In this document: positions 1,343 to 31,551 of the stretch, one piece after another
Layout: each line of letters opens with the position of its first letter
Position numbering within the stretch: position 1 is the first letter of the stretch
NCBI GenBank assembly: GCA_020055645.1
Contig: CM034546.1
Coordinates: forward strand, 6,014,001-6,078,000
DNA from: Tomocerus qinae
Taxonomy: Eukaryota; Arthropoda; Collembola; Entomobryomorpha; Tomoceridae
Length of the DNA stretch: 64,000 bases
Reading direction: 5' to 3'
Notes under the pieces: generated by a model
The model's input: only the letters and a program-made list of their open reading frames with translations
Database searches by the model: none
What the model was told of the DNA's origin: nothing
Position numbers and translations under genes: made by a program

Positions 1343-1880
1343 TTCTAAAATTATTGATGAACATGTAAACATTGTAAAGCCGTTACCAGAGGTCGGAAAC
1401 GGTTGCCCTAATTTTAAATTAAGGAGGGCTGATGCCATATCTTGGAGTGTTACTCCCTAAAAATTATAAAATAGCAGAGGGCCTAAAAGCCATTCTCGTT
1501 ATTGTCCCGATATTTAGAATTCAAAGAAACCAAAAGGTTGGCTCTTCTTACAATATAATTCAATTCATTTTTTTGTATAGGGTATTGGAATTTATTTACT
1601 TGTGGGAATTATTTTCTTTTTGTTAACCCATTTTTTCTCTCTACTACCCGGGGATTTCTTCCCCATGAGATTTATTTTGAAGGGGGGACCCTGGAAGGTA
1701 AATCTTGCCCAGCAAGACTCACCTTCCCATGAATATACAAACGCTGTCTCGTGGCAGTATCTTCGCCACGACTCATCTTCCCTATCTCCCTCCCACACTA
1801 CACTATCCCTAATACTAACAACTCTATACTATACACTAACTAATACCTATACTATGTACTACCTTACAATTCCTTTTCAG
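1343..1880. other. Non-coding stretch
   Basis: Short low-complexity stretches, including a tract of CTATAC-like words near 1800-1860, and a pyrimidine-rich AG at about 1880 that could be an acceptor for the zinc-finger relic downstream. No gene seen. Confidence 0.4.
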
Positions 1881-3951
1881 TTTTAATGACTCAGAAAATA
1901 AAATCTGTTGTTTAAACCTAAATTTGGAAGCCAAAATAAGTGCGTCGAACTTTTCAGAATTTCAGAAGGGAAAATTCATACCGCAATCGACATGGACGCT
2001 GGGTTAACTAATTTAATACTATCATTAGTTAAGAGCAGTAAGTATACTGAGTTTAATGCACTACTTGTTCGCTCTCCTTTCCTTATTGATTATTTTAATT
2101 TTTGCAATATTTATTTTTAATTTGTAGATACTCGCTATGATGAAGTTGTAGATTGTGAATGCAAAATAGAAATAAAATTGGAAAATAGTCCCGGATTTGA
2201 CAACCAATTTACTTCAACGGAATGTGATGTCAATGACATTAACAGTGAATATTCAAATACAGAACAAGACTTTGAAGATGGCAATGACAATGAATCTATC
2301 TTATGTAAATCTGAAAGCCAAGATGCCGGTAACAGCCAGGTGGAATTAAATACATCTCCAAAATCAGAGGCACTATTACAAAGTACGTTGCAGTGCTCCA
2401 GAAAACGAAATGGTAATTCTGTCAAGTATTTTTAATAATTTGTTCAAACTTATAAAATGTTTTAGTAAAAAGTCGTTAAAAATTAATTTGGGTTTAGGGA
2501 AAGCAGCAATAAAATCAGATAGTGGCTCAGAGAACGAAGACCAGTTTACATCTGACGAATATTTTAATGAAATCGAAAGTGAACACTCTAAATCCCGCAA
2601 AAAATCTGTTATTGAAAACACATCCAAAGAAAGGAAGAAGAAAAATCTACGTCTAAAACGTAAACCAACAGTTCTGCGTCGAAAAAATACCTCGCCTGTT
2701 AATAGCGTTGATCCCTTAGAAATATATAATTGTTCTACCTGCTGTTGTCAGTTTTTGTGTGAAAGTGATTTAACAATGCACCAGTCGAACTGTGATCAGG
2801 AATCTAATTCTTCTGTAAATAAAAATTTTACTTGTCGGAGGTGTAAGAATTAATTTTCTAACCGCCTTGAATTGGCCGTACATTTAAAAATTGAACACGG
2901 CTGTAGCAAAATCTATTCGTGTGAGATTTGTGGGAAGAAGTATCTTACGTATTCTCTTATGACGAAGCACGAGAGGGTTCATATTGGAGAAAAGCTGTAT
3001 GGATGCGACAAGTGCGAAAAGGCATTCTCGCATCAACGTTTACTGACTAAACACCTGAAACGACATGAAGAGTCATGGATTAAACCCTACAAATGCTCAA
3101 AATGTGAAAAAGCTTACGCCCATAAATTTAATTTGGTTGAACATGAAAAAACTCATAATGAAGACGTTCGTTGCGCAGCTTGTGCCAAGAAGTTTTCAGG
3201 TGCCCAAAGCTTTATCCAACATATGAAGTTACACAGTGACAAAAAACAGGATAAACCATTTGTGTGTTCTACTTGGGGATGGGCTTGTACTTCATAATAC
3301 AGTTTGAAAAAGCATGAACAGATTCACGATACAGAACGCCCACTTCCATACGTCTGTCAATTCTGTGGCAAGAAAGGACGAAGAGGAAGTTTAACACAAC
3401 ACGAAAAAATTCACACAGGAGTAGGAGAAAAACCATTTCAGTGCTCATTTTGCGAAGAACGCTTTCCAAGCAGATTGAGATTAAAAAATCATGAACGAAC
3501 CCACACCGGAGAACCTGCACCAAGCACGTATTTAGTAGGGGGCGGGGGGGGGCGCAGCGCCCCCCCCCCTAAATCTGAGAAAAAGAAAATTTTTTTCTCA
3601 AAAATGGCCTAAAATTGCAAAATTTTTTCGCGCTTATTTTTGGTACAATTTTTGCTTCCGCCCCCCCTTGAACAATTTTCTAGATACGTGCCTGACCTGC
3701 ACCATTTTAATGATCGTTTTGTGATTTGTGACAAGCGATTTAATAGAAAAACCAACCTCACAACACACGAGAGGAGACATTCAGGAGAAAAACCCTATTC
3801 ATGTACAGTTTGTGGCAGAAGCTTTTCAGATTCGAGTGCAAGGAAAATGCACTTACGAGTGGTCCACGACAAAGAGCCTGGAAAGTATCCTTCTACAATT
3901 TGTGGGAAACCCTTCCAGGGGAAAATCGATCTCCAAAGACACGAAAACTAA
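1881..3951 (+). pseudogene. C2H2 zinc-finger protein pseudogene
   Basis: The plus strand carries a decayed multi-finger C2H2 gene. Short 5' pieces (about 1908-2038, 2128-2411, 2466-2850) are separated by GT-AG intervals of 50-90 bp and encode acidic and lysine-rich linker. From about 2730 onward canonical fingers follow one another with TGEKP-type linkers, which is the arrangement of DNA-binding transcription factors. The gene is broken. A TAA at 2851-2853 lies inside a finger with otherwise perfect C-x2-C-x12-H-x4-H spacing. A second in-frame TAA lies at 3295-3297. A 174-bp MITE sits at 3521-3694. The frame on the two sides of the insertion no longer agrees once the MITE and one target copy are discounted. 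A late finger near 3890 has lost its first Cys. Several independent lesions argue for a true pseudogene rather than one sequencing error. Confidence 0.75.
3521..3694. mobile_element. hAT-type MITE, family A, inside the zinc-finger relic
   Basis: Terminal inverted repeats CAAGCACGTATTTAG and CTAGATACGTGCCTG bound a 174-bp element. It is flanked by a perfect 8-bp duplication, ACCTGCAC, at 3513-3520 and 3695-3702. Eight-base duplications are the hallmark of hAT transposases. Inside is a G/C-rich hairpin followed by an A/T-rich section. The element is too short to code. A second copy, in the opposite orientation, is at 47436-47636. Confidence 0.9.
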
Positions 3952-4309
3952 CACGAAAAGAGTTCATAGTTTCTGATTATTTGCCTCACTAATTGTCTTA
4001 TTAGTCTTTCACGTTAAAAATGGAAATCGTTATTACTAATTTTTAGGCAATAAATTTCAACACATTTTTTAACCCGTTCTTAAGGTGTAGTACCAATCTG
4101 TAATTTTATTTCTTGTAAATTATAAATATACATGTTTGATTAAAATATTAAGCCAATCGTGTGTTACATTGTATTTGTATATATAGCGACCAAGGAATGC
4201 CAGAAATGGTACATAAATACATATCTATGTAAATTATAATTTTATGGCATATTTTAGGTTCCTAAAAAGCCAATAATCTTCCAGAGTTAGGCAAAACATC
4301 TTTCTTACT
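3952..4309. other. Intergenic, convergent 3' ends
   Basis: Lies between the end of the zinc-finger relic (plus) and the end of the cysteine-heptad gene (minus). It is AT-rich with AATAAA-like words. No other structure seen. Confidence 0.4.
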
Positions 4310-4789
4310 TCAAGGATTGCAGTTACAATTAGTGGTGCAACTATTGCAACTGCCATTGCAGCTGCAATTACTCTTGCAACTATTACAATCACCATTGCAA
4401 CCCCTACAATTATACTGGCAACTTTTACAATCACCGTTGCAGCCTGTACAATTACTCTGGCAACTATTGCAACTACCATTGCAGCTTGTACAATTAATCT
4501 GACAACTATTGCAATAACCAAATGACGAGAAGGCCTGCCAGAACTTCACCTAAAATATTCAATTGTACTTAATTAGATTAGGTTTTCTAATTTGAAAATT
4601 AATTCATAAATAGTATACAATTACCTTCAAAGGTAAGGCTGCCGTAGTTACAGCAGCTTCAGCAGAATTTGCTTGACCAGCTGTAAACCCAGAGCTTAGT
4701 TCTCCGTTCGTATTTTCAATTACTACTTTGCTCTGTACTGAGGAAACTAGTATTCCCCCCAGAGCAAAGTAAAAAATGATGTTTTTCAT
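4310..4789 (-). CDS. Secreted cysteine-heptad repeat protein
   Basis: Two exons, 4625-4789 and 4310-4549, are joined by a 75-bp GT-AG intron in phase 0 and give about 134 residues. The start is the ATG at 4789, which begins a clear signal peptide (a Lys, a hydrophobic stretch, then VQS). A short Ala-rich mature N-terminus follows. All of exon 2 after about 12 residues is a repeat of the heptad CxxCxxx, with two alternating flavours: CNSCQxN and CxxCNG(S/D). About nine heptads are visible, the last few lacking one residue or one Cys. A TATATA-like box lies about 90 bp upstream. I do not recognise the family. The regular Cys spacing suggests a disulfide-laddered solenoid or a metal-binding protein. 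Its secretion argues against an ordinary cytosolic metallothionein. The function is unknown. Confidence 0.75.
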
Positions 4790-4813
4790 GATTGTTGATT
4801 GATGGTTTTGCAA

Positions 4814-5581
4814 AAACGGGCCCTAATCATTCAGCTTTTTAGTATGCTGTGAATGTTAAACGAATTTTTTCCAACTTTATATATTCTGGAACTGGAACGA
4901 AATATAGTTAAAAACATTTTTATTTTACAATGCAAAGCAGCTCATTAATAGAATTAGTTGCAAGGTAGTATTTTCTGTTACTCTCCATTACAACTCATGT
5001 TTGTCAAAAGCACAAGTTAGAAAAAGGCTTTAACCAGGAGTTAGAGACAACGTTTGGGCACTTCCTAATCTTGTGGGGGCCCGCTCTTATGGTTTTAAAA
5101 TTAACATATTGATGGTAAGATTATTTGGATTTTTGATATCTTTATTTTGCTAGTGTCCTAATTTGTTTTACTGGAGACTATAATTTTAAAGTGGTGCCAA
5201 AAAGTGTCTAAATCTTACGACAGAGATATAAGTTAAGTAAGTGACTGCAACTAATAGCAAGGTGCATTAACCCACGTACGGGGCGCCATATGTAGCCGCC
5301 ACTGTCCAAGTAATCATGATTTATTTGAATGATTGCACAACGCAAACATTATTAAGTAATATTTACAATGATCAGTATAAACTATGGTTAAATTGATGAT
5401 AATTTGGTTTTATGATTTCTGCTTTGATTCATATTCAAATTGTAAATCAGATGGCAAGTATAATATTAACAATTATAAAAATATTTTAGTATTCTTATGT
5501 TAATTGGAAAAACTTGGTGACACATGTTGTGTATTACTTAATTTGTTTGGACTAAAAGTATCTAGTATTATTTAGTACCAG
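4814..5581. other. Upstream region of the cysteine-heptad gene; no gene
   Basis: A TATATATTC element at about 4876-4885, read on the minus strand, is a plausible core promoter for the gene ending at 4310. The remainder is AT-rich with no coding signal. Confidence 0.4.
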
Positions 5582-5589
5582 CCGGTCAC

Positions 5590-5822
5590 CAGGGAACTAA
5601 AAAGGTACTCCTTTTTTACAAAAAAGGTAAAAAGCACTACTTTTTCTAAAAAAGCAGTCCTTTTTACCTTATTTACATGTAAAGTGAAGTAAATGGGGCA
5701 CCCTGCTACATCAAAAAAGGTAAAAAGGCAAAAAAGGACTGCTTTTTAAAAATCTTACTCCTACCTTTTTTATAAAAAAGGCAAAAAGGTAAAAGGCAAA
5801 AAAGGTCCTTTTTTGTTCCCTG
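5590..5822. mobile_element. hAT-type MITE, family B
   Basis: A 233-bp element with ends CAGGGAACTAAAAAGG and CCTTTTTTGTTCCCTG. It is flanked by a perfect 8-bp duplication, CCGGTCAC, at 5582-5589 and 5823-5830. The interior consists of AAAAAGG / CCTTTTT words in both orientations. Sister copies are at 10573-10784 and 45800-46142. Confidence 0.9.
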
Positions 5823-6066
5823 CCGGTCACAGGACCTGTTATAAATAAAGCTAGTGTGTATTCCGGAGCAATATTGCATTATTGTACGATGAGAAGAATG
5901 TATTTCAAATGCATAGATTTTTCCAATTGACGTTTTCATGGTTTCTCATTTGGTGGGTCGGTGGTAGAGATTTTACATTGATAGATATAGGGACTTTTGT
6001 TAAACTGTTCGTATCTCCGGACAGAGAGATGGTACTTGGAACGTACATTGCAAGTGCCACTACATA
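5823..6066. repeat. Dispersed repeat shared with 46590-46790
   Basis: The stretch starting with GGTCACAGGACC and running through a TTGACGTTTTCAT / GGTGGG block matches 46595-46790 closely over about 180 bp. Part of the block also resembles the arms of the fold-back at 61567-61673. It is an ancient interspersed repeat into which the family B MITE inserted (the MITE target sequence GGTCAC is part of it). Confidence 0.6.
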
Positions 6067-6624
6067 ATGTCAAAATTGAATTTATATTAGCTAATGCTAA
6101 TTTAAATTCAAAGCTAACATCATTGCTTGATTAAAAATTTAAAACAAAAAAATTGTTTTCGTTTCATATATTACACAATTTTCGGGGATAAATTTTGGAA
6201 ATTTATTTATTTCGGTAGCAACAAACCGTAATGAACGTCTTTAATTGAAATAAATTAAAAAACAAAATTTCTGGACATTTTTTCTTCCGTAATCATTTTA
6301 TCATTTTTCGTTACCATCATTTTATTTTCAGTTTACGCACACACAATTGAGACAAAAGGAATTATAGTTCGTAAATAAGTATTTTACTTCAATATATCTG
6401 CAAAGTCAAAAGTTTGGAATTAATAACTCAAATACAAATGCCAAAGAGATGTATGTATGTAGCTGCTTTATTTAGCTCATCGAAATAGTATTCAAGTGTT
6501 ACTGCAAGTTTTGTTTGTCCAATATGCGTGCCATTAATATTTAAAAAGTGAAAGCTGAAGTTCAATTACAATAATTCAATATATCGTTTAATACATTGTG
6601 ATAACGTATAGAAAGAGAAGGATG

Positions 6625-6873
6625 TCATAGTAAATGTGGATCTTTATTAAGGATTAAAATATAATGAATAATAAATATGAGAATAGCGGAACATATAAGT
6701 TTGGGTGGAGACAGAACATGTCTGTTTGGAACAGGAATGTGATTGCAATCAAAGCACTTTCCTTTCCGCTTGAAATTTGACATTTTACTGACTTGTAAAA
6801 CTTCTGTTAGAAACATGATAATAAAAAGCAGGAATAAAAAAAAGTTGAACATTTGAAAAACTCGTTTTTCCAT
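6625..6873 (-). CDS. Small hypothetical membrane or secreted peptide
   Basis: An 82-residue frame opens at the ATG at 6873. It has a strongly hydrophobic N-terminus (signal or anchor), a short basic section with a C-x2-C pair, and a hydrophobic C-terminus. A TATATAAT word sits about 20 bases upstream on the same strand, very close for a normal 5' UTR. No family is recognised and no paralogue is seen in the window. It could be a real small gene, or chance in AT-rich DNA, where hydrophobic frames are easy to obtain. Confidence 0.25.
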   Translation of the reverse strand: MEKRVFQMFNFFLFLLFIIMFLTEVLQVSKMSNFKRKGKCFDCNHIPVPNRHVLSPPKLICSAILIFIIHYILILNKDPHLL

Positions 6874-7091
6874 TACATGTTTATCGCCTTCGCCTATATA
6901 ATAGTTCCACCCACAATATTGAAAGTTTAAATGTGAGAAAATTATTGAAAAACATTATTAAATTAAAAATCTATTTATTTATCTACAATTAAGTCACTTT
7001 AAATGTACAAAATGAAATTATACCGTTTCTCAATTATAAAAGAAAATGCCTGATTTTTTTCTTTTAATGCTTGAGACTAAGAGTAAGGCAT

Positions 7092-10000
7092 CTACAAATT
7101 TGTGTATATTCCGGTCATTGAATCAAAACGCCGTTGAATATCACTAAAGCTTGGTCTCTCAGACGGATCCTTTTTCCAGCAATCTTGAATAATATTGTAG
7201 CTGCAATAGATCAATCATACGTATCATATCAGTTTTAACAATGGAATTGACATCTTTGTGGCATTGTTTAAAGGTACACAACTGCTGCTACAATTTTGCG
7301 ATAAATTAGTAGCATTTAAAATACAGTACTAGTAAATACATTTCGTATGTAGAAAATTCTGGCAATCCCAAACGAAATCCATTTGTAAGCATTTTGACAA
7401 ATTCAGCATTGTATTCTTGGCCTGGGTAGGGAGTCGCTCCCAAAGAAAATATTTCCCATAAAGTGACCCCAAATGCCCATACATCTGATGCTGGAGAAAA
7501 TTCGGTCAAATTCAAAGACTCCACCGCAAGCCAACGCCAGGGAAGTGGTACCTAAGAATTTATATTTTTGGAACTTAAATTGCTTATAAATAATAATATG
7601 TTAATATTGCTACCCATTACATTTCCCTTTCTAATATAATTTGAATATTGATACAGTTTTTTTGACAGTCCAAAATCTGAAATCTTGACGGACAGATTGG
7701 AGTCCAAGAGAATATTTCTGGCAGCCAAATCCCCATGGATCATGTTCATGCTGGATATATATTTCATTCCATTAGCTATTTGCATAGCCCAATGAATCAG
7801 CGTTGATGTAGTTATTGTTTTGCGTTTTCGATGTTTTCGTTGTTGGGCCTAGTAACAGATATACAATGTACAACTAATCAATAATAAATGTAATTAAATT
7901 ATTATATTTTTATGCTTACTCCGAATGGTCGGATTCTGCTCCTGGCAAATCACTTACATCAACCTTGACATGAAGTCCTTTCGAAACTTCATTTACAAAA
8001 TTATTAGCATTTTTTCTTAGATATCCAAGAAGGTCACCGGCACTGCAATACTCCAAAACTACATAAAGCTGGTCTGGAAATAAATGTATGACACAATGAC
8101 ACCTAATAGTTTGTTTTATCAAAAAATTGACTTTTTTGCTGTAAACGTAATGGGTGTGCTAAGAATTAAGTGTTTTTACGGTCAATTAAATTTTCAGTAC
8201 AAGCTCCAATTACTCCGACGACATTTTCGTGGTTCTTGATATAAAGCATCACTTTCAACTCGGCCATCGCGGATTTTACGTAATGCGCATTGGCTCCTGC
8301 CTTTACAGTTTTAACCGCAACACAAAGAGATTGCTCATTCTTCAGTAATCCTTTGAATACAATCCCGAACTCCCCGCTCCCTAAGATGGTTTTGAAATCT
8401 AAAAGGAAAATTTAAAATTAATTAATAATTTTTATTTTTAATTAACTTATAATAAAATTATTTGGGTAACTGTAATGCCTAGAATTACCCAAATAAATAA
8501 CGTAAGTTGGATTTGATATCATTTGTACAATTAATGCGCCTCGTCCCTTAATGTTTAACAGCTAGTTTAAATTTCACTCAATAATTACTATACAAAATAC
8601 TAATTTCATACTTCATTTAATTGTTATACCGAGTTCTAAGTCATTTAGGGGAATTTCCCTGTTGGCGTCATAAGCCAAGTTTTGCGCGTTGTGATTTGCC
8701 ATTTCATTATCGGAAATCAATTCTGGTCTTCCATTACGAAAATATTCGATTTCCTCCGGGGTAAGTCGATCAACGATATTTTGCAGAGATTTATGTTGTA
8801 TATACAGCCAGACAAAAGAAATTGATATCACAACGATAAATACTCCAGCAATTACTCCCACTACTATTGTTAGGGAACGGTCTTCTGAGAACAATTCTTG
8901 GGGTCTCGCTATAAAAATGAAATCCTCAGTTTAAATTATATTGTTGAATATTGTTCTTTAAAAATAAGGAAATTAAAAATTTCGATCATTTACCAATAAC
9001 TTCTAAAGTGGCTTCTCCTTCTTTTATTTCTGATGTTATTGCATTTGGTGTCTGTTGTAGAAGACCTACATAAAAGAATTTACATATCATTTTAATATTC
9101 TATCGTTTTATTCATAATAATATTAATAATAATATCTTTATGTACAAAAAAAGTTTAATTACGCACCGTTCTTCCAAATAATTGGTGAGACAGTTTGAAG
9201 AAGGTTGATTTGGCAAGCTACAGCAACAATATCAGTTGATGGGATTTTCAAAGTCGTAGAAACTGTATAGATCTCTGCTGCTATTTCTGTCGTTGAGTTA
9301 ATTAGGTTTGCTAAATAAAAGATACATAACTAAATGTACATTTTAAAAATTATCGCCTTAAACACTTCCCAAATTTAAAAGAGTTTTTTTTCAAATTGTA
9401 TCTTTTGTAAATACCAAAAACGTTTGCTTTACGATTTACATTAACTGCTTAAAAATTCAGAGCACTTACATGAAGAAATTGGAAGTTCGCTGGCATTTTT
9501 CAATATTAGTACCCACACTGGATGCGAAAGAACAAGCATTAATTGAATTTCACATTTTGCTCTGACATATTCCCCTTCAATAATTTGAGAAACGTTAACT
9601 GAAACAATTGGAATTGGAGAATACAATGGAACCGATTGGCCTGTGCCATAACTAGATTCCCATTGCGGTCTTGATAGCTTTTCACTAGAAAGAGGATCTG
9701 TTTAAAACGGACATTCCAAATAGATAATTCATTATCCATGACTAATTAAATATATTTCATTTATTTATTTATTACAGTCAAATTCATACAATGTGATGTT
9801 TTTCCAACGTTCATGTTTGGGTAAAAAATGGCAGAAAAGTCTTTTTGGAATCCAACACATCTTAGTATCCCAGAAACATTAGCGGGAATTTCAAACACTA
9901 ATTGCTGACGATATTGGTCTGGTTTTGTTAGGTTTAATTTACGGCGAATATTCTAAAGATAAAACGTTTTGGTTATATAGAAGATAACTTCCCAATTTTT

Positions 10001-12394
10001 GTAACTGGTAAGGTCGCCTTTCCAATAATGCAACCACATTTTAGATTTCAACAAAAATCATGAGAGTAAATTGATTTAGGTTAGGTTGGCTGAAATACTA
10101 GTTAGTAAAAGATTACTGCTTTACTTTTAACTTTTTGGAAATGTGTACAAATAAAAAATTGAGATCTTCCAGTATTTTTATACGGCCCTTGATTTTCTTA
10201 TAATTTTCTAACATTTAAAGAAAAAGTAAGATAGAACTTTCGTGTATTATTACATCTACCTTAAATAATTCATCTTCGTAAAGGAATGGAGCCTTCATTT
10301 GACATTCGGTGTACGTCGAACAAGGAAGAAAGTAAACTATTATGGACTCCCAATCAAGGCAAGTACATTCTCCTTTTACCAAGGATTTTAGGTTATCAGC
10401 CACCCCTTCCTTTATTTCGCTGCTGTCTACAAAAAAGTTGAAATCTTAAATAAGTAATGTCATTTGACGAATAAAATGAGCAGAATATTTCAAATACAAG
10501 AGACCCAGCACAGGGTACTAGAAAATATAATTGATTTGGTTAGCTTAGATTTGTAAGTCACTCTGTGCGGAGCAGGGAGCAAAAAAATGACTTTTGTTTT
10601 ACCCTTTTTGTCTAGGCCTATGCCTTTTAATATAGGTAGGAGTAAGTTTTTTAAAAAAACAGGCCTATTGTTGCTGTTTATCTTTTTTTATGTATCAGCA
10701 TTAAATTACTTCCACTATACATTTTAAAAAGGTAAAAAGGACTGCTTTTTGTAATAAAAAAAGGAGTGCCTTTTTTGTTCTTTGGTGCGGAGGTGCCTTT
10801 TATAATATTCTGCAGTTTATATTTTCATAATTAATTTGAAAGTAAAATATTACATTTTGATGGGGAAAATAAGTAGAGCCAATTGTGAAGGATATGTCCC
10901 GATGCATTTTTACAAGATATGTTCACATTAGATGATACCCACCATTTGTATTTTTCAGCGTATATTGGGGGCCTATAAATCTCTATTTCTGATTGGTATT
11001 TGTAATAATCTTCGGGGACAACTCTAGTAAACACATTTTGTTGATGTTTATAATTGGTTTCAATCCGTACTGGTGATACAGATTTACACCAAAATTTTAA
11101 CTTTTGGTCAATTCTGACTTTCAAAAACATATTTCTTTCTGTAGGCGACACAATGAGATCTGTAAGAAATACAAAAGAAGGTCAAAATCGTCAGCATTAA
11201 GAATCGATCGATATTTATTTTAAATATGTGTTACCAGGTGATGGGCGACCATGTATTGTGACGAAATCGAACGACGAATTACTGTCAGCAGGTTTACATG
11301 TTATAGTAAATCCGTCATGAATCCTTGGTATATCTTCTTCATTGAAAATTGATTTAAAGTTAACACAAAAAAGGCCTTTACATGGATATGAATGTGAATC
11401 TTTCATCTACAGATATTTGAAATCGTTAATTTTTACAAAATTAATAATATTTATTTTAACGAAAGTCCGACCTGAGTAGAATTGACAATGCGGCGTCCAA
11501 GGTAACCTTTGTCATCGTACTCAACAATTACATGTCTAGGGTACTTCAAGGCGCATGGTAAGACAACCTTCAAACTTCCACCAAGAAACCCTCCACCGAA
11601 ACTATGTTCATTTTCCAATGCGTTTATGAAATCCAGGCTGTCCATGTAGATGTCCTCGCTACTTAGTAGAAATGGAGAATGGCGTACCAAGCCTAATTTT
11701 GAGCAATGTATATAAAATTATGGCAAAAAGTCAATTCAGTTTTAATTAACAGGTTAAAAACACTTCTCTATATAGGAAAACTAATTATTGTAATTAAATA
11801 ATTATTTTGTATTTAGTATTTAGTTAGATTATGACTTCCGATAAACAGACTCATCCCCAAAGCCTTAACGAACCATGTTTTCCAAAAATGTGTACGTTTT
11901 CATTTCCATAGTATAGCAACCTTGAAGTAGTACAATAATAAACACCAGTGATACTAACATCAAAGTCCTCCAATGTGATACTACTTGTGTAACACCGTCT
12001 CGTATATGAAGAATTGGCTAGTTGGACGTGAAACTTAAGTTCTACTTTACCCACGTACCCCTGTAACAATCAAAAACAAATAAACCCAAAATATTTATTG
12101 CAACAGCAAAAAATATTAAAATTTATCATAAATTATTTATAATATTAAAATTACCATGGCAACAGTAGCAACCCACAAAACCGGTTCGTTCCCCGTGCAA
12201 TTCATTGTAATCTTTTTTATTCCATGTTTAACCGCATAACTATTGGCGGGTGTTATATCATTCATGACAAGTTTCCGTAATTCGTGTTCAGAAACGTCAA
12301 TATTACGTTTAGGTCCACATCTTGAACAAAGACCAACTTTTGGATTCAAAAAGATGAATATTGCTACCACCAGAGTAAATGTAATCTTCTCCAT
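7092..12394 (-). CDS. Receptor tyrosine kinase, Pvr/VEGFR-PDGFR-like
   Basis: Sixteen exons read on the minus strand, with all splice phases consistent, give about 1020 residues: 12155-12394, 11874-12060, 11472-11692, 11235-11406, 10854-11159, 10260-10426, 9790-9952, 9470-9697, 9167-9310, 8994-9065, 8630-8908, 8180-8398, 7958-8073, 7621-7848, 7340-7551, 7092-7200. A signal peptide starts at the ATG at 12394. About 620 extracellular residues follow, with paired cysteines and an Ig-type GVYYC, so several diverged Ig domains are likely. One membrane helix lies at about 645-668. A juxtamembrane segment leads into the kinase: GSGEFG loop near 733, VAVK lysine near 755, HGDLAARN at 876-883, DFG at 896-898, [12 protein letters not shown] and a C-terminal DPSERP. 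The kinase insert is very short and basic. The HRD arginine is Gly. The ligand would be a PDGF/VEGF-like factor by family knowledge; the exact orthology is inferred. Confidence 0.85.
10573..10784. mobile_element. hAT-type MITE, family B, in an intron of the kinase gene
   Basis: 212 bp, beginning CAGGGAGCAAAAAAA and ending TTTTTTGTTCTTTG, with a perfect 8-bp duplication GTGCGGAG at 10565-10572 and 10785-10792. It lies between exons 5 and 6 of the receptor kinase. The outer TIR bases differ between the ends, so this copy is older than the one at 5590. Confidence 0.85.
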
Positions 12395-12842
12395 GGGTAA
12401 TTGTATCTATCCTTCACAGGGATCTATTGATAATATTAATAAACGTAGATGTAGAGTACACTTGTCCATTGCCGTAATGAAACCTTTGTTGAGTTGATTA
12501 CCTAAAAACTTCTATTGTTTCATTATGCAACTTAAGCTGAAAACTATACAGAAACACTCTTAGCAATCTCCCTTGCCTGTCTTGGCTATTTACCATTTTT
12601 CTATCTAGTCAGCACTAAAAAGTTGATCCAATTCTTTTATGGACTATATTAATATTATTCCTAAATCGAATTGGTGATTTAATTCATTACTTTCCTTGTT
12701 TTGTTAAGTGCTAATAATACCTAATACGCTAACCACCACTAACATCCTTTATTTGTTATCTCCTTTTCAAGCCATAAAAAAGAGTTTTATTTAGTAGTAT
12801 TGAACAGCAAGCCAGTTTAAGGTTGGGATAAGTTGTACTCTT

Positions 12843-13783: not shown

Positions 13784-16700
13784 TTATGTTACCACATTTT
13801 TGTTTTTGCTTATTTCCAAAGACGATTCATTTTTCATTTCAATTTCGAAATTTTGAGCACTTTTGGAAGATAAACTAAGAAATGCTCCACATAGCAATCT
13901 CCTTAGGGCTAGTCGATGATTCTTATTCATACAACATCGGAAAATAAAGATGAACACTCCCTGTAAAATACCATAAAATAATTTCGCAAATAATTTCCAA
14001 TTCCAACAAATCTTGCTTGACAATACCTGAGACGCATTGAGGATAGTAAAAATGTACGAAAGGAAAATGTGCCCATGTACATCAACCAATGTAAAACTTC
14101 CAAAAATCCAAGATGCTCCGAGAATCGCAGTCAATAACATGGTCCCCAGTTTTCTAGTTTAAAAAAATAGTTTTGCCCTTGTCTTTATAAATGTTATGTC
14201 CCAATTTACTTCATTGAGTTATGAAATGAACTGCTTCTAGAAATCCAGAAAATGCTTTGTTGTTATTTACCCGTTGAATTTTTTATTACAGATGCCTTTG
14301 TGGTCTGTAGTGGTTTTCCTATTCTTAGCAATACGTTTGGCGATAAATAAGCCCAATGTATTACCCTAAAGACTTTATAGTTAATATATCTCAATATTTC
14401 ATTAATTGACAGAATTATGTTTACTTACCACACAAATTAATAATACAGGAGCCATAAACGCCCAAATATAACGTCCTTGTAACCAACAACTAAAAATAAA
14501 TTTTTTTTATTATATTAAATGATATAAATACTACTGAATTACTAATTAATTTACTTTTAAAATATTTGTAATCAACGTACAACATTTCACCCACGTAAAT
14601 ATTATCGGTTTCCATTGAAAATCCAATTGTGAAAGTAATTGCGACAGTTAACAAAGGGATTCCATAACCAATGAAGTAGTAAATCTTAAACAAATGATCT
14701 GTTGGTGACAATATTTTGACGACTTGAACGTACAAATGAATTCCTTCAACTGCAATCCATCCAAATGCACATAACCATGAAAAGTGGGTTAGTACCCCCA
14801 AAGCTGTACAAGTCGGCTGGAAAATAAATATTATCGTCATTAAATATAAATATAAACTTCAAAAGAGTAACTCCTAAAACCGTCAAATAATCACCAACAT
14901 CTATTATCCTTAGTAACTAAACAATGCGTCATGCATTTCTACGACCGTACATAAGGCTTCTATAAAAGTGAATGTAGAACATAAAGAATTTAATACAAAG
15001 CAGTAAATAATTACATCAGATAAATGAAAATTGTCTTTATCTCCAAAGATCAGGAAAATGTTCCCTCCAATTAGAGCAACGCAAAGGTGGATTGAAATTC
15101 TTGTCTCGCTCCCCGTTGGTTTTTCCACGGCGAAACTTATTAGTGAGAGGATCAGGCATACAATGCACAAAGCCAGTATTGTCCACGTTAAAATTTGCAA
15201 TCCATAGTCTTTTCCCTTTTGGCATAAATAAAATATATTCAATGAAATCATGTAATATTAAAATTATATATTTCCTATACTCCTTCCAGACTTACAGAAT
15301 AATCATGAAAACTCGCTAGAACGGAAAACGCTGCTGTGGTGTGATTACATTCGCATGTGGTCACAAGTCTATTCGACATCGTTTTGTAGCATCCTAAAGT
15401 AGACCAAACCCTAAGAATACATACATGTTATAGTAAAACGTATGGCAAAACTGGTAATAATATATTATCTTTCATGATATCCTCACTTGTCTTTTTTGTC
15501 CCAAACCACGCATATGGATGACCCTCCAACAGCTTTCTTATGCTCTCCTAAATGCAATTTTCGTCGGTACACATTTTTAGAATAACCAACTTCTTCATGA
15601 GTATTTGCAAATTGGACTCTAATTTTAGGGTCTATATCACAAAAAGTGATTTTAAATCTACAAATTTATCATAGAAATCCTAAATCTACAACCGCCTTAC
15701 GTTTTAGTTGAATTGACATATTGAAGACGAGAGATACCAATTTTCCATTAAATTCTCTTGACTGGCTATAACTTTGTGTCCCATTTTCTTCAAAACTAGT
15801 TAGAAAAATAATGTAATTACCATATAATAATATAATTAAATAATATAATAATTAGGTAATTATTTTATATTGGACAAAAATGTATCATAGCATTGCAGCT
15901 TCGAAAATGCTTGAGTATTACACAACTTGCCTTTTGACTGTGTTGTTAATAATATTTTCCATGTAAATTGGTCGAATCGCAACAGCGTAAATTAATCGTG
16001 ATTGAAGACGCCAAAAGTTATGTTGCTCTATTCCCAAGGATATTGAGGTTAGGCTAGAAAACTCTTCATCATCAATATAAATGTTGCTTCTTGTAAGTTT
16101 ATTCCCAATTTCTTCTATTGCACCTAAAAACACTACGATGTTTGATTTAACAGTATTGTTTTCTAAGGGATGAAATATTTTTGAATTGTTTTTATGGTCT
16201 GAAATTCTTTCTGCAAGACTCAGAGTGGTCGAATCCATTATTTCCAAAAATTCAGTGAAAACATCTGACATTTCATCCTTTTCTCATAAAAATAATTTGG
16301 TTAGTATTATCGATTATAATTTTATATATCTTTGCATATATCCTTTTGGATTGCTGACCTTCTTGATTTTTTCCCATTTACAACGGTTCACCATGAGATT
16401 TCCAAAAACATTTAAAACTGCATCTGCAATTTTGACCCAATCAAGTTTTGTGGTTTTTGTTTTTGCATTTGAAGTTACATTGTAAACCAGTTGGGAGATT
16501 TGCAAAATGTCATAGCTAGAACTACTACAAAAGTTAGAATCTTCGGCTATTACTTCCTCAAAAATTTTCAAGACTAGTAAAATATCGTCAATGTTTAAAT
16601 CCTGAAATAGAAAACTCGGCTTTAAACAACACGAAAGAATAAAGAATTAAAAACTTTTTATATTAAATATTAATTACTTACAGAAGAAGTTAGAATTAGC

Positions 16701-19700
16701 TTTAGATTGTCTAAACATTTATTTTGTTCAGCTGAGTTGTTTATCTTTTGGCAGTATCTAGTGGTTATATACTGTCCTACATATTCGGGCACGTCCTTAG
16801 GTGTAATTTTGCTTGGTCCAATTCCATTAACTGCCCAGACTCTTATCAAGTAAGGGAAATGGGTAGTAGGATGAGTTATAGTAAAATTATTCTGTTCCCA
16901 ATTATTTACTTCTTGGGAGTCCCAATCAGAATAACCATTGTCCTGTTTCCATTGAACTTTATATTTAAAAGCTGGAGCATTATGTTCCAATTTTGGTATG
17001 GGAGTCCAAAATACGACGAGATTACCCGGACTTAATCTATGAACACTGACACCGTCTGGATTAATAAATGGAACATCAGGTGGAACTGTACACTTTTCAG
17101 ATTCAATAGATGGATGTGAAGAACCAATTTTGTTGTAGGCAATGACTCGGAAAATATAATTAATCCAAGGTAAGAATGGTACAATGCAACTTTTTGTTGT
17201 TGCCGGTAGATCCTTAATTGCAATTTCCCATGTGTTCCGGCTATAGTTATTTTTGTACTGGATGCTGAAGCTAAGGATTGGATTCGCATTGTCATCCAAA
17301 GCCTCCCACGTAATATTTGTTCCCCATTGTCCACAAGTAACTTCTGTAATGTCCGGTTCAGAAGGCACATTTTGTACAGTCAAAGTAACAGACGCCGTTG
17401 CCTCATCGAGTTCCGTCCTCGCCCTACAGGTGTACACTCCCGAGTTATATATTGTTGCCATGTAGATGGCCAAAGTATTATTTTTTTCCAATTTCGCATT
17501 CCAATCATCATCTTCGAAGTCTATTAGGTATCCGAAAGCCAACCACTCTATCTTCGGTGTTAGTGTCACGTCTGTGACCGCGCCGCACCGGAAAGTCACA
17601 TTCGTTCCTATGGGAACTTCGACATCTTCGGGTCTGTCTGTTATGCGAGTGTGCTCTGATTTAATAAAAGAAAAAATCTTATTGGTAATTTGACAACTGA
17701 ATTATTCAAATGTGCAAGATAATAATTTATTCACCTTAACATTTTTGAAATTCTAGTCTAAATTTATTTACTGCTACGCGTGGAAATTATTTACCTTTAA
17801 CAGTTAACGTGGCCTTTGCTGTATCGTTGCGAAATTTATTTCTGGCGAAGCAAGTGTACTCACCCGAATCGCGGAAAGTCACATTGCGAATCTCTAAATC
17901 ACCATTGTGAAGAACATGGAAACGGCCACCTGCTACTTCTCTATTTGGCTTGAACCACCTAACAATAGGTTTTGGTGACCCGAAAACTCTACACTTCAAT
18001 GTCACCGAGTTTCCGTAAGTTGTCACTTTGTTTTCTGGTTTTTCGATTATTTCTGCTGGAAAATCTATACAAGAAATGTATACATAATCTCATAAACCGC
18101 AGATGGTTAGTATAGTTTGAATGAAATTCATGGATAACAAAAACCTAAACTAACCAAAAACATTAAGGTAGACATCCTTGTAAACGTATCCGAAGGGATT
18201 CGTAGCGTTGCAACCGTAATTTCCAGTGTCGGATACATTAACCATTTCAATAATTATTTCGTTGCCAGAAAATCTCCTTCGAGGGTTGGGGACGGCTTCT
18301 TCCAAAGGTTTGCCATTGTGAATCCATATAATTTCTGGAGCAGGATTTCCTCCAGCCTCACAATGGAATTTTGCTGTCTCCCCAACTGCCGAATTGACTA
18401 TCTCAGGTTCAATGGTAAAAAACGGAATGGCGTACACATGCAAATTAATAGAATAAGAAATCGGAGTGCCTACTCCGTTTGTAGCTTCGCAATGGTAAGT
18501 TCCTTCATCACTAAAATCGATATTGTTGATTTGAAGTGTTTTCCCATAATTACCATAGGCGATTCTATCATTCTCAATTACAGGATTCTCATTTTTCTTC
18601 CACTTGATTTCAGGTAACGGTCTATAACACAAAAAATTAGTTAAGAAAATTATTAAAATAAAGGTTAAAAAAATTATCCCAAATCAAATTTTTAGTTAAG
18701 AAAATTGACTTACGACCCTCCAATAATGCACCATAAACTTGTCGTTTTTCCCCTTAAGGCTACTGTATGTCTTCTGGAAGCGTACTGAATGATTGGTGGA
18801 TTCTTGTTTACAAAACCTGGGTCATTTATTGACGAAACGCTCACATACACGCTGTTGCCAAATTTGCATTCTTCACTGTATAAATACACCGATTTTTCAA
18901 TCAAAAGCTATTTAGTTAGAAATAAAAATATTACTAAAGGTCAGGTCCCCGAAAGTCAAAATTTCAACTTGAAAACCTAATGCACTGAAAACAATATATT
19001 TCAATAAAAATATGCAAATTTTTAAAGATATAAATAAATACTATTGGTAATATTGCAATGCATTTTGTAAGGTTTATTTATAGTAAATAAGGACGTATTT
19101 AGGGGGGTGCTAGGGTGCTTAAGCACCCCCTAAATTTCCTAAAAACACACTAGATAATTCTCAAAAATTGATAAAAAGTAGTTTTATACATATGAAAAAT
19201 TTGCTGGTATGCTTAAGCACCCTCTTAATTTGATTTCTGGATACGTCCTTGATAGTAACTGACTTTTGGTTGCCGAGAAAAGAAATACTGATGATTCTCT
19301 TTATTTTCTTTTTGTTTTGTTACCTGAATGGTATGCAGGCAGAGCAGGTGTAAAATGACTTTACACTTCTGTCGGATTGTGTCAAATTTGAAAACCAAAG
19401 TGAACCTTCAGGATCAGTTGTTAACCTAGGCGAACTTATGAGCCTTAGTGCCCCATTTTGATCCTGCCGTATTATAGAACCAATATATATTGTCAAATCA
19501 ACATTATTATCTTCATAGCATAACTTTTTCACTATTTAAATCACATTAAACTACATTTAAACCACAAACAATTTGCAATAAAGGTGTAACCTGAAGCATC
19601 CAGTCCAGAACAGGTTTTGGCCAACCATCAGGGGGATGACATGTCAATTTGAATGGTCGCCCTTCCTCTGCCACAATTACAACTGGCTCCTCGTATGGAA

Positions 19701-20333
19701 ACGAATTAATTTCAGCACGGCGGACATATACTGAATTGCTGGTTGCAGTTCCCAATTCGTTGTAGGCAAAGCATTGATATTGCCCAATATCTTCGTCTCT
19801 AGGGCTAGTGACGACAAAGGTTCCCTTCCCTGGCATCTGAGACATTCGATCGTCATACGCGTCCCAGTTAAATGGTTTACTATTTTTAGTCCAATTGTAT
19901 TTAGGCTGAGGGTCACCCTCCGCTTCACATTCAATAACAAATGGTATATCGTTATCGTCTTGTCGTATTGCCACTAAAAAATTCAATTCTTCTGAGGAAG
20001 GCTGCCTTACAATCACTGGTGGAAATCGAATAGCTATCCAAACAAAATAAATAGGAAATTAGATTATTTTCTAATGTTTGAGGCATTATAAACGCTATAT
20101 GTACAAATATAATTAAACGGTAGTCATTATTAGCTATATAAATCAATATGGGAATTCGAATCAACAAGTAATTTTGATTTTAATTTTGAAGAAATAGTTT
20201 TAAGAGGTCATGGTAATTAGAAAATGAATAATGTGAAATAGAAAATTGAATGTAAGTATTTCCCACCAACAGAAGCAGTTCCAAAACCCATGAAACAAAA
20301 TAAAATGACAATGGTATATCTTGTTGCGTCCAT
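13784..20333 (-). CDS. Chimeric neuroglian/L1CAM-like adhesion GPCR
   Basis: Eighteen minus-strand exons sum to 4365 nt (1454 residues plus stop) with every phase matching: 20267-20333, 19591-20033, 19324-19463, 18714-18875, 18155-18621, 17795-18064, 16682-17655, 16359-16601, 15931-16277, 15701-15795, 15487-15631, 15296-15410, 15015-15215, 14581-14816, 14429-14489, 14271-14365, 14027-14153, 13784-13960. A signal peptide is followed by six Ig domains; the first two closely resemble neuroglian (CEAEGDPQPKYNW, SPRDEDIGQYQCFA, DPEGSLWFSN). Two FN3 domains follow, ending at about residue 841. Instead of three more FN3 domains and a FIGQY tail, the chain runs into a GAIN-like region. A GPS follows (CVVW ... 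W ... GC ... TTCECNHTTAAFSVL, about 1107-1150), then seven helices of family B: WIFG in TM6, YIFTILNASQGVFIFIFRC in TM7. The exon between FN3 and GAIN is joined by a 75-bp intron. The likely role is homophilic or ligand adhesion coupled to G-protein signalling (inference). Confidence 0.85.
19088..19251. mobile_element. hAT-type MITE, family A relative, in an intron of the CAM-GPCR gene
   Basis: 164 bp with ends TAAGGACGTATTTAG and CTGGATACGTCCTTG. The flanks are ATAGTAAA (19080-19087) and ATAGTAAC (19252-19259), an 8-bp duplication with one mismatch. An inner hairpin CTTAAGCACC is present in both orientations. Its ends resemble the CACGTATCTAG ends of family A. Confidence 0.75.
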
Positions 20334-27044: not shown

Positions 27045-29480
27045 ATAATCTATTTTTCAATAGGAGTGGCGGTGGATTGCAGCTTTGGCTTCAGACTTTT
27101 CTGATTGCATTTGCCTAAAAACAGCTCTAATGCAAAATGAATACATTATTATAAGCTTATTATATTGTAAGCTTATTAGCTTATAGCTTATATTTTACTA
27201 TATACTACTATAAACTATATCTCTATACTATACCACACACACTATAATTTGCATTGCGATGCGATATTGCGAATTTCGTTCCATAATTCGCATGGCATTC
27301 ATATCAGTGTATAAGTTCCTGTACTTGGGTATTTTATTGCCATGGCTATAACTGCTCATAAGTAGATTTGGATTATGCAATGTATCCATGATTCACATGA
27401 TTAAAATTCAAAAATACTGTGCTCTATAGTATAATAATAATACTGTCTTTAATTTGTATTGCATAATTTATGAAATACACATTTTTTGTGAAACGAAACT
27501 TTGTTTAAACCGTTAGTTTTGTTACTCATATTTTAGTTAAGTAACAAATAGTGTAAAATTGAGCGAAATTTGTTCAGAACTGAAAAAATTAACCCCACAA
27601 TAAAGTATATATATATTACCGGTGCGGTAGAGTAGAGCGTAAAAGTACTTTCCATTTCCAATCAATAAAATGCTGTATGTATGTTCTACATACAGTCTAG
27701 AACGATGACTGTAATATCCTCTGATTTTTTTATGTATAATCATTTCAACTTTTCAACTCATTCGATTTTATCCAGCATTAGATTATAGATTGAAGCTATG
27801 TTCTTTTTGTCCTTCAACGTATATAAGCCAAAGATATCCAGCATCTCTCCATACCATAAGAATTTAGCACCAATATGAAGAATGTATCTATTTGTATGTT
27901 ATTATGGATGATAAAAATGGCTACTTTTACTCTTGCTGCATATCTGCTGAATATTTTGGAGAGCGGTGATAACAATTCTGCGTGTCTAACAACACTGGAG
28001 GCCTAGTAGCAAATAATAAATCAGGCCATGCACAGTAAAGCAAATTAAGTTAAGCGAGATAAACCTGGAATGGGCATTTTACAAACTACATATGCATACT
28101 TTATTCAAATAGATTTGGATTTTATCATGCACTCCCATAAAAATTTGTATATGTATTAAACTACTGTATGTTTTAATTAGGTAACCACAAGATAAAAGTA
28201 AATACAGACTGATAGCGTAATAGCTATTAAAGCGGACATAATTAAAAGCAAAGCGAAGATAACTGCACGAATTTCACTGTAGGTACTTATAATTTTGTCT
28301 TCCAAAAGCATTTTTGGTCTTGATACTCGATTGTAGGTTTGGGTTCATGCAATTAGGTATTATGCATACTTTATAAGAATTCGAACAAACTAAACATGTA
28401 ATGTTCATTATCTTACTTCAGTTGTATAAGCCTTCACCTTTTAAGTAATCGAGACATCTTGGTCAGCTCTGTATTTAGAATTCCGTTTCGAGGGGCTTTA
28501 GACGATCTATAGGATATAATATTCCATATTTGGCAAAAATTTGGCCCTTTTTGAAAAAAAATGAGTCAAAAACAACCTTAAAATACGAAACTTTCCTTCC
28601 AAACTCCATAGCTTCACCCTCATAATACAGTTGCAGCCTTGATTACATATTTAATCAAATTAGTGCATCTAAACCGTGACAGTATGCCAATTTATATCCA
28701 CATTTCCTTGAATTTTTACGAAGTACAGTACGTGTTCAAACAAACAATTTGGAATGTCTTCTTTAATTTCCGTAAAGCTATAATAATAATAGATGCAACT
28801 AAAGTTTTAAGCCCGTCATGGAATTAATGCAGTATGTTGTTCGTTTCAGTTAAACACATATTAGAAGTAATTTTAATAAAATACAAGTAGTCTAATTAAC
28901 ATTAATTCAATAGGAAGTGGATTCAAAAAACGATGATATAAAATACCGAAGTTTATTAAAATTACTAGTTGGTCTTTTAGTTTTCAAACTTGCTTTGATG
29001 TAATTAGTAGTTTTAGATTTATTTAGAAACATGCAATTAGCGATGAAGACTGGAGTAATTAAGGTTTAACTATATAGAATTTTCTTTTTAATAAGTGTAC
29101 CAAATAACTAATTTGCTTACAATAATTAAATTACTACATACTATACTCACTATTCTACCGCTTACAATTTCCTATCAAGGTTACTCTACTCCTAAAGTTC
29201 TAGTATTTCGCATAAGTAAATAGTAAAAAAGAAAACAACATGAATTATTTTACATTCAAATCGCGTCCTTTATTGATGTGTATCCTGGAATAACTACCAA
29301 CATAATATTATTGTGTAGGTACAATCCGAAATGTCAGTTCCTTCAGTTACAAATTAAAAATCTGTATAACCTAACCTAAAGATAAAACATTGTAATTAGT
29401 GTATTTCAAAACTTAACTATTTATCTTGACTCCTACAAGTAATATTATCTTCCAAAATTATTAAAATTACTACGTTGACA
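27045..29480. other. Intergenic, about 2.4 kb
   Basis: AT-rich, with a low-complexity patch of AAGCTTATTA-like words near 27150-27210. It leads up to the first ionotropic receptor. Short ORFs here lack any supporting features. Confidence 0.4.
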
Positions 29481-31551
29481 ATGAAATGCTTTGTAATTTT
29501 AGTTCTTCAAACCCAATTATTAAACTGTTTTCTGAATATCCACTGCAGTGGAGAACATTTATCAAAAGTTACCAGCTTGGCAGAAATAGCGTGTAAAGGA
29601 AATAAAATTATTGAAATTGTGTATAGTCCACCATCAGGTAACATCATTAAAGAAAATCACCAAGAATTGTACGAAATATTGAGCCAATTAAGTCCATCAA
29701 TGAAATGCACTATCCGAATTGCCTCTGAGAGCTTGATTGCCGAAGAACATTACAGTTACAGCAAAAGTGAACGTAATACTTTAATCAGGAAAAACGGAAA
29801 TGATTTTTTCCCTTATACATCCAAGTTCGGTTATCATGGTAAATGGATATTGGCAAATGATTTAAGAATTAGTTATGTCGAGTTTAACTATTTGAACTAT
29901 ATGAAGCAGCAGAAGATTGAAACGTCGGTTTTCGTTTTTACTTATTCGTCTAAATCAAAATTAAAAAAAGTTATGCCAGTCTTTCAGAGTAATTTTCTGC
30001 ACGGATATTTGATATTACCGAACAGAATCTTCAAACTTTGCGTTTGTTGCGTTGCCAACACTGGAGGATCGCTTTGGAAACCATTAGAAGGACAAGAATT
30101 AATGGAAAGTTTACAGCGCATCAATTTCAATAACGCACCAATTAGAATATATTATGGCAAAACATTGTCACAATCTGTGTTACCTAGTTTTCTGTTCAAA
30201 TATATGCAGGCACCAGCAAAACAATTTTTATTACGTTATTTATTTAATATACTTAACTTTGTGTACAAATACCTGACTGAAAATATGAATTCGAGTACAA
30301 TATACGTCTTTGACGTAAATGAAGCAGATCTGATAATGACAGACGAATTACTCCTACAGAACCTAGTGGAAATGGCAGAAAGCTATTCAATTATGGTGTC
30401 TGCGTCTATGCAGATTGCATTTATATCCAGTACACAAAATCAACCCAGTTGGCAAGATTTATTGAAACCAATTGGGATTTTTGTTATGGGCCTGACTCTT
30501 TCGGCGATTTTAATCGTAGCTTCATCTCTCAAAATTGGACAATAAAGAACCGAAACGGAAAATATCGCCATTGAAATTTCTTTGGCGTGTACTTCGTCCC
30601 TTAATTTGTCAATCGACAGAAGACTCCCAGGATGTTTCTGGAGAAAGAACCTGGTTTCGAATTATCCTTACAACGTGGTTGTTGTTTTGTATTCTGATTT
30701 CTAAAAGCTATAAAGGAATCTTGACAGGAATAATTATTGATCCTTCTCCAAAACGAGAATTCTTAACGTATTCTGATCTTGTTGATCCAGATATTAAACT
30801 TTTTACTGGAATCAGTAGTTCAGGGTACGAACAAACTTCTTTTGCTGGAATATTTTCTACGCTGGCACTAAGTAATACAAAAGAAAATCCCAATCGTGAA
30901 ATTTACAAAACAATATCCAATAAAATACTGGAAGGTAAGGCTAGACTACTCTTATGGGATATTTACTCGGATATCATGTACGAGGGAAAAGTATATGTAC
31001 AGCAGAAAATGAATATTAAGATTATGCAAGGACTTATTGAGCAGCTCCACTCTCAAAAAAGTTTTCTCGTTTCCTCTGAAACTGTGTCTACAGTACCAAC
31101 AACCATGTTTAAGAAAGGCGTCTTTGGTTCAAGAAAAGAGTTTGTATTTGAGCACCTTTATGCATCTGGAATTGTTGGTTGGTTGGACACATACAGACAA
31201 TATGTTCTATCTATGGTTATTAAAACACGAATGTTTGGTGAAAACTTAATTCCCAAAAAAATATTTAAAGAGGTGATTCGATCCTACAAACGAATTACCC
31301 AAGAACCCACTACACTCAGTATAGTACACTTTTGGCCACCATTTATTCTTTTTGCAGTTGGAATAGGTATAGGTTGGATAATGTTTTTAGTCGAGGCATT
31401 TGCATATCTAAAGCGGAAGAAAAATAAAGTCAAGAAAATACCAAAAAATTATTTGATTTCTAAAAAATGCAAAAGAAAGCCAAATAGAATTATAAGGGGT
31501 TTACTTCAATGTTTTCGAGTTTATAAGTATAAACGCAACGCCGGTAAGTAG
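29481..31551 (+). pseudogene. Ionotropic-receptor-like chemoreceptor, frameshifted copy A
   Basis: Single-exon gene starting at the ATG at 29481 with a signal peptide. It is clearly the paralogue of the intact 677-residue gene at 42047, with long identical stretches such as NAPIRI and SSTQNQPSWQDL. The family is the variant ionotropic glutamate receptors: an extracellular ligand-binding part, TM1 (IGIFVMGLTLSAILIV), TM2 with a degenerate SYxxxL motif (SKSYKGILTGIIIDP), an S2 lobe, and TM3 (WPPFILFAVGIGIGWIMF). Relative to copy B, 11 bp are missing at about 30518-30524, at the end of TM1. This shifts the frame and stops translation at 30543-30545, while the remaining frame continues open to 31551. 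No other lesion was noticed, so the loss looks recent, or it is an assembly error. Copy A would otherwise be full length. Confidence 0.8.

Follow-up and report, generated by a model that had tools for sequence, protein, structure and literature searches.

Adhesion G protein-coupled receptors (adhesion GPCRs) couple adhesion modules to a tethered-agonist receptor, and in vertebrate ADGRA and ADGRF5 immunoglobulin (Ig) domains stand ahead of the GPS motif and the seven-transmembrane (7TM) domain. To our knowledge, the origin of the ectodomains of these receptors is usually too ancient to trace. In the L1 proteins Ig1-4 mediate adhesion, and hemolin, an insect immune protein, is an Ig1-4 relative of neuroglian. 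Ig domains ahead of GPS and 7TM are also found in adhesion GPCRs of the sponge Amphimedon, for which a figure legend names both Ig and fn3 without specifying that they belong to the same protein (PMC4302439), and in the amphioxus protein P0131. A homology to neuroglian was not seen reported for the receptors of Amphimedon, P0131, ADGRA or ADGRF5. Here we describe a locus within a 64,000 nucleotide stretch of the genome of the springtail Tomocerus qinae (contig CM034546.1, positions 6,014,001 to 6,078,000, in the following called the window), which is probably one functional adhesion GPCR gene whose ectodomain contains Ig1 to Ig6 and the first two FN3 domains of a duplicated neuroglian.

Reconstruction from the raw sequence resulted in 18 exons on the minus strand with compatible phases throughout and a spliced length of 4365 nt, corresponding to 1454 amino acids and a stop codon; this agrees with the 18 exons and exactly 1455 codons of the initial annotation. 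Sixteen of the 17 introns have GT-AG borders and intron 9 (15930-15796) is of the GC-AG type, and the G+C content amounts to 38.7% in exons versus 25.1% in introns. Upstream of the ATG an in-frame stop is located at a distance of 54 nt, and the nearest AATAAA at the 3' side is found at position 13543. The intron between the FN3 and the GAIN side had been given as a 75-bp GT-AG intron; the borders are correct, but its length is 80 bp. It contains neither AATAAA nor ATTAAA and would introduce three in-frame stops if retained, so that the protein would end 3 residues later and a secreted Ig-FN protein would result. The fusion point itself is located within exon 7, where the similarity to neuroglian stops at window position 16757, equivalent to residue 786 of the canonical springtail neuroglian P0007. 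The linker which follows in exon 7 is also present in the paralogs, ahead of a phase-0 donor.

Table 1. Features of the fusion gene; positions refer to the window.
Feature	Position	Strand	Basis
Exon 1: start codon and signal peptide	20267..20333	-	exon model; hydropathy peak 5-27
Exon 2: neuroglian Ig1 and start of Ig2	19591..20033	-	71% identity to P0007 residues 1-142
Exon 3: Ig2	19324..19463	-	exon model, P0007 comparison
Exon 4: last part of Ig2, first part of Ig3	18714..18875	-	exon model, P0007 comparison
Exon 5: Ig3-Ig4	18155..18621	-	exon model, P0007 comparison
Exon 6: Ig5	17795..18064	-	exon model, P0007 comparison
Exon 7: Ig6, FN3-1, FN3-2 and receptor-side linker (YITTRYC...CLDNLKLILTSS)	16682..17655	-	exon model, P0007 comparison
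Junction intron, 80 bp, GT-AG, phase 0	16602..16681	-	exon model
Exons 8-11 with introns: GAIN-like region, start of GPS	15487..16601	-	exon model, Pfam
Exon 12: GPS core CECNHTT-AAFSVL, one-residue insertion	15296..15410	-	exon model, family alignment
Exons 13-18 with introns: 7tm_2 seven-helix domain, tail of ~50 residues without FIGQY	13784..15215	-	exon model, Pfam, hydropathy

The exon model, Pfam and the comparison with P0007 agree with the earlier claim that six Ig and two FN3 domains of the neuroglian type are in the same frame as a GAIN-like region, a GPS motif and a 7TM domain. In the Pfam search the protein matched I-set (2.9e-83, five stretches), Ig_3 (2.7e-76, six stretches), fn3 (3.8e-14, two stretches), GPS (PF01825; 1.4e-8) and 7tm_2 (3e-31). 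The hydrophobic segments fall between residues 1159 and 1406 and, together with the 7tm_2 match, correspond to the family-B seven-helix domain of class B2 adhesion GPCRs. The GPS contains its paired Cys/Trp and is matched in all eight members of the receptor family described below, and GAIN is matched in six of the eight (E<=0.05 in both cases), at best with 2.1e-5. The closest solved relatives of the receptor half are ADGRD1, ADGRL3 and ADGRE5. The window protein shares with these adhesion GPCRs the GPS, a GAIN-like region and 7tm_2, and the stretches of TM3, extracellular loop 2, TM6 and TM7 can be aligned by eye; it differs in that its ectodomain derives en bloc from a known gene for cell adhesion and that the GPS register is displaced by one residue.

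Using residues 20-850 as query, 313 protein matches were obtained. Among the 120 matches listed, most named rows are neuroglians, and the others include unnamed and hypothetical proteins, the CHL1 family, hemolin and neuronal cell adhesion molecule; the letters FIGQY are present in 93 of the 120. The closest proteins among the matches listed are P0007 with 62% and the Allacma fusca neuroglian P0008 with 55% identity. P0007 comprises, by eye, FN3-3 to FN3-5, one helix and a FIGQY tail. Per domain, the identity to P0007 is 72% for Ig1, 70% for Ig4 and 69% for Ig5. A total of 248 positions are near-invariant, with conservation in at least 97% of the 118 other proteins compared, and 204 of them are retained by the window gene (P0007 237, Allacma 240), including 25 of 25 cysteines and tryptophans. 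A tree of the Ig-FN region (30 rows) unites the window gene with P0007 (100/91), nested within Allacma. All six L1-type Ig domains are present and in order, whereas a search of the window for FN3-3 to FN3-5, the single helix and the FIGQY tail found none of them; the statement of the initial annotation that the whole L1 Ig array is present is therefore correct for Ig1-6 but does not extend to the last three FN3 domains. Thus the window protein has the order Ig1-6 and FN3-1/2, as well as Ig-region introns at corresponding places, in common with the neuroglian/L1CAM family (L1, neurofascin, NrCAM), but ends in a seven-helix receptor.

A normal neuroglian gene, which the initial annotation had proposed to look for, is present elsewhere in the genome. 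Searches of the 334 Mb in 115 contigs located it at C5:1469715-1475475, where P0007 matches with 71-100% per stretch, tail included (tblastn), and in the table of the whole-genome search with P0007 the FIGQY ankyrin-binding tail was matched only on C5. The tblastn borders of the C5 gene on P0007 numbering are 142, 189-194, 243/244, 367-397 and 487/488, and the introns of the window gene are found at 142/143, 188/189, 242/243, 397/398 and 487/488. Within the precision of a few residues that tblastn allows, five Ig-region introns correspond between both genes, the comparison referring to positions and not to phases. Residues 487-928 of P0007 form one open stretch at C5, and therefore the fusion occurred within what is a single exon of the canonical gene; by this comparison the breakpoint is placed within the FN3-2/FN3-3 exon of the neuroglian copy. 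Neuroglian was therefore copied at the DNA level, together with its introns. In a tree of FN1-2 the window gene and three paralogs (A, B and C) form a monophyletic group (100/100) which adjoins P0007 (97/93); this corresponds to a single capture of the neuroglian FN domains, after the split from Allacma. The Ig-FN and FN1-2 trees date the partial duplication of neuroglian after this split; the Ig1-4 tree, considered below, leaves the date open.

Hemolin resembles the window gene in being a partial duplicate of a neuroglian-type gene, but it is secreted and has no GPCR part. A separate Ig1-4-only copy of neuroglian exists in this genome at C1 21.86 Mb (L051, C1:21860693-21862327), with 63-68% identity to P0007 over its two long exons; the following 3 kb contain no receptor sequence, which gives this copy a hemolin-like architecture. 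A weak FN-like match to neuroglian (35%) was additionally observed at C1:5654411-5655145 on the minus strand, near the gene cluster and with no adjacent 7tm_2 in the genome search table.

The same domain order is repeated in paralog A (L031), which is located ~34 kb from the window gene on the same strand (C1:5982650-5992872 for exons 2-18) and comprises Ig1-6, FN1-2, the linker, the GAIN region and 7TM. Paralog structures were modelled with the window exons as guide, and for paralog A the phases of the window gene were imposed; under these conditions 17 of 17 exons from 2 to 18 showed AG/GT borders and open frames. When no phase was imposed, all 16 exons from 2 to 17 had an AG at precisely the predicted acceptor position; a GT coincided with the predicted donor in 14 of the 16, and in the remaining two it was shifted by +6 bases and in phase. 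The ratio of nonsynonymous to synonymous substitution rates (dN/dS) between the two genes, calculated by the Nei-Gojobori method with our own script, was 0.35 for the Ig part, 0.345 for FN, 0.44 for exons 8-10 (GAIN), 0.21 for exons 11-14, 0.37 for exons 15-18 and 0.37 overall. Both tandem copies of the fusion are under purifying selection. The identity amounts to 89-96% in exons 11-14 and introns 11-13 versus 70-80% in the remaining exons, and the former tract has likely been gene-converted. In introns 3 and 4 the identity is 87% and 97%, but the alignments cover little of the longer intron.

The initial annotation had treated the window gene alone and missed that it belongs to a family of eight genes with differing ectodomains. 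In a tree of the 7TM domain (23 rows, 17 from this genome, the latter picked for matching the window protein, with other 7tm_2 matches of the genome search outside the tree) the eight genes form one clade (100/99), which is split into L035, L036 and L037 (99/94) versus B2, the window gene, A, B and C (100/99). Two members have neuroglian Ig and FN, two neuroglian FN, two diverged neuroglian-like Ig, one LDLa and EGF and one plexin PSI/TIG domains. Gene B (C1:6544820-6550160) contains neuroglian FN3-3, -4 and -5 and then, in a single open frame, the end of FN3-5, FN3-1/2 and the linker. Gene C (L034, from C1:6601243) contains FN1-2 and the linker; upstream of it a signal-peptide-like sequence similar to window exon 1 and a Ser/Thr/Lys-rich open reading frame (ORF) were found, which are putatively spliced to it. 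No Ig exons were found in the 18 kb before gene B or the 11.7 kb before gene C, and exon 18 of gene C was not found within the stretch examined. Gene C also has tandem GPS exons with identical translation and AG/GTAAGT borders (7442-7552 and 7733-7843 of L034), which are possibly mutually exclusive. Gene B2 (L033) matches LDLa (3.1e-12), EGF (4e-5) and, under the cut-off, EGF_CA (6e-4), and has the common linker SGQYIATKHC; the letters SGQ also occur between FN3-2 and FN3-3 of P0007 and P0008. L036 and L037 contain diverged Ig arrays, with 46% identity to P0007 for Ig1-2 of L037 and 37% for Ig3-4 of L036.

In L035 (C1:59983500-59993400, 1830-9251 of this region, plus strand) ORFs with plexin PSI and TIG domains lie upstream of the GAIN and 7TM exons. 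Four of the six ORFs scanned match plexin modules, in order: TIG_plexin (1.4e-9), PSI_PlexinA-B (2e-9), TIG_2 (1.2e-12) with PSI, and TIG (1.6e-10). The ORFs at 3810-4058 and 4289-4564 match nothing; they are followed by a linker ORF, which has a donor in phase 0, and by the GAIN exons from 5719. Between 4564 and 5719 there is no ORF of at least 60 amino acids on the plus strand, so that a plexin cytoplasmic domain could not be accommodated there. No Sema-like ORF was seen by eye in the 5.8 kb upstream. L035 thus apparently joins plexin PSI/TIG to the receptor, with putative splicing. A further TIG_plexin match was observed 22 kb away at C1:59963264, and two others on C3. Outside the eight-gene clade, the adhesion GPCRs L038-L045 of the same genome come closest in the 7TM tree; they differ from the eight genes in that no match to neuroglian or plexin was found in them. 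Their cysteine-rich ectodomains had been assigned by eye to the HormR type; this was not confirmed, as HormR was absent from the Pfam matches of the 11 ORFs tested, and a weak WSC match was obtained in L039 only.

The GPS distinguishes the two members with neuroglian Ig domains from the rest. The window gene and A read HTTAAFSVL, with an insertion of one residue after the GPS threonine, whereas B, B2, C, L036 and L037 have HLT or HAT followed by AFS, TFS or AFT (HLTAFSVL in gene B) and L035 is degenerate (CDCDRFGPYSVL). According to PMC10148833 the Stachel agonist motif, T-x-F-x-x-L-M, has its Phe at P3'. This Phe is at P4' in the window protein (TAAFSVLA) and in A, and at P3' in five other members; the F-x-x-L spacing is kept in the window gene. 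HTT alone is no defect, as P0002 reads HTTNFALL. A Phe or Tyr stacked on the GPS histidine promotes cleavage (PMC13062082). At the second position past the first cysteine of the GPS, Val is present in the window gene and A versus Phe/Tyr in the other six; this position was equated with that of the stacking residue by our own alignment, independently of the numbering of that paper. GPS cleavage may thus be impaired in both genes. Activation that is reversible and independent of cleavage has been described for adhesion GPCRs (PMC9271043), and because the GPS is altered in both Ig-bearing members, little or no autocleavage and a mechanism of the isomerisation type would be expected. The proposal that the adhesion molecule is wired to a tethered-agonist receptor is therefore doubtful for the window gene, in which the agonist step is uncertain.

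The receptor half gave 5 matches in one protein search, in which the 7995 candidates sharing most words were scored, and 13 in another. The best, P0126 (42%), is on a contig of 1491 bp. The Ig similarity of amphioxus P0131 to the window protein is generic (25-29%). The literature search, which covered sources other than subscription papers and preprints, found no report of a neuroglian-adhesion GPCR fusion and nothing pairing an adhesion GPCR with Collembola. The sole paper found that pairs adhesion GPCR with neuroglian deals with annelid cell division (PMC5725810).

We regard the locus as one gene because the join lies inside exon 7, paralog A repeats the order and the splice sites, and the overall dN/dS is below one half. 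Several observations weigh against a functional fusion receptor. The window gene has altered 44 of the 248 near-invariant positions versus 11 and 8 in the canonical springtail proteins P0007 and Allacma, and its branch in the Ig-FN tree measures 1.21 versus 0.08 for P0007; both could mean relaxed constraint. Paralog A has lost one Ig2 Cys, one Ig6 Cys and the GPS glycine that precedes a cysteine, its exon model has no convincing candidate for exon 1, and the GPS change shared with the window gene lies within the apparent conversion tract and therefore counts as a single event. GAIN (PF16489) matched the window protein under the cut-off (4.7e-4; 20.1 versus 26.5 bits), a PDB profile search reached adhesion GPCR entries over the GPS part only and not GAIN, and single-sequence hhalign of the GAIN region against 11 adhesion GPCRs gave no match (probability <=1.6%). 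No 7TM similarity was found among the 120 listed of the 313 neuroglian-side matches and no fused relative in another species among the candidates scored and the matches listed in three protein searches, whose named rows include one springtail, Allacma. In the Ig1-4 tree the window gene groups with A (99/98), but P0007, Allacma, L051 and this pair form an unresolved fork; L037 is on a very long branch in the same tree, and L036 and L037 may stem from this or from a separate neuroglian capture.

The turnover of ectodomains within one small clade and the fast evolution of the window gene would also suit an immune or cell-recognition receptor whose changing ectodomains recognise non-self, comparable to hemolin, instead of a guidance receptor. 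This is rather unlikely, as the domains acquired belong to adhesion and guidance modules whose partners are endogenous; the good conservation of Ig1, narrowly the best kept domain, points in the same direction but weakly, since it is also the best kept among canonical proteins. A real but decaying gene, in which duplication and gene conversion maintained a fusion that has no function, would explain the long branch, the missing cysteines and glycine of A and the altered GPS of both copies, but is considerably less probable in view of 18 open exons, intact Cys/Trp, a signal peptide and dN/dS values of 0.21-0.44 across five measured segments. A misjoining, by reader or assembly, of an adhesion GPCR gene with an adjacent gene for a secreted, truncated protein of the neuroglian or hemolin type could appeal to the product of intron 7 retention and to the Ig1-4-only copy L051, but is hardly credible and was rejected on account of the mid-exon join, the absence of a polyadenylation signal from the 80-bp intron, the same order and splice sites in paralog A and the joining of neuroglian FN to the common linker in genes B and C.

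Within the window, the downstream neighbour of the fusion gene (7090-12406, minus strand) contains tyrosine-kinase exons (three ORFs with E values of 1.2e-23, 1.2e-19 and 5e-13) preceded by Ig-like and transmembrane-like ORFs; it is PVR/VEGFR-like by eye only. An ionotropic-receptor-like gene is paired at 29430-31551 and 41999-44080 (plus strand; Lig_chan under the cut-off, one copy scanned), and a WS/DGAT-like acyltransferase at 35445-37168 and 56226-58150 (minus strand; weak match in both copies). These paired copies may reflect the duplication of a local block.

Assuming a functional fusion receptor, its Ig1-4 arm would still bind neuroglian on adjacent cells, or itself. As the Ig array is intact and Ig1-4 of L1 proteins are adhesive, binding in trans to one of these partners would be likely, homophilic adhesion of the window protein being suggested by homology. 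Contact or pull on the Ig arm would then alter the GAIN/7TM part and signal via a G protein, in place of ankyrin, the route of canonical neuroglian. In the Ig-bearing members a reversible action of the uncleaved Stachel would replace shedding of the ectodomain.

Taken together, it is possible, at somewhat less than an even chance, that a young springtail lineage of adhesion GPCRs has served as a signalling chassis with captured ectodomains of at least two axon-guidance receptors, neuroglian and plexin, besides LDLa/EGF, in which a G-protein readout replaces ankyrin and the plexin GTPase-activating domain and the members with neuroglian Ig domains work uncleaved. If the plexin case is true, a single receptor clade would have recruited parts of two guidance receptors. 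The donor gene, the fused genes and several alternative ectodomains occur side by side in this genome, where introns and breakpoints can still be recognised, and the capture of an ectodomain and its effect on signalling and GPS cleavage thereby become directly testable.

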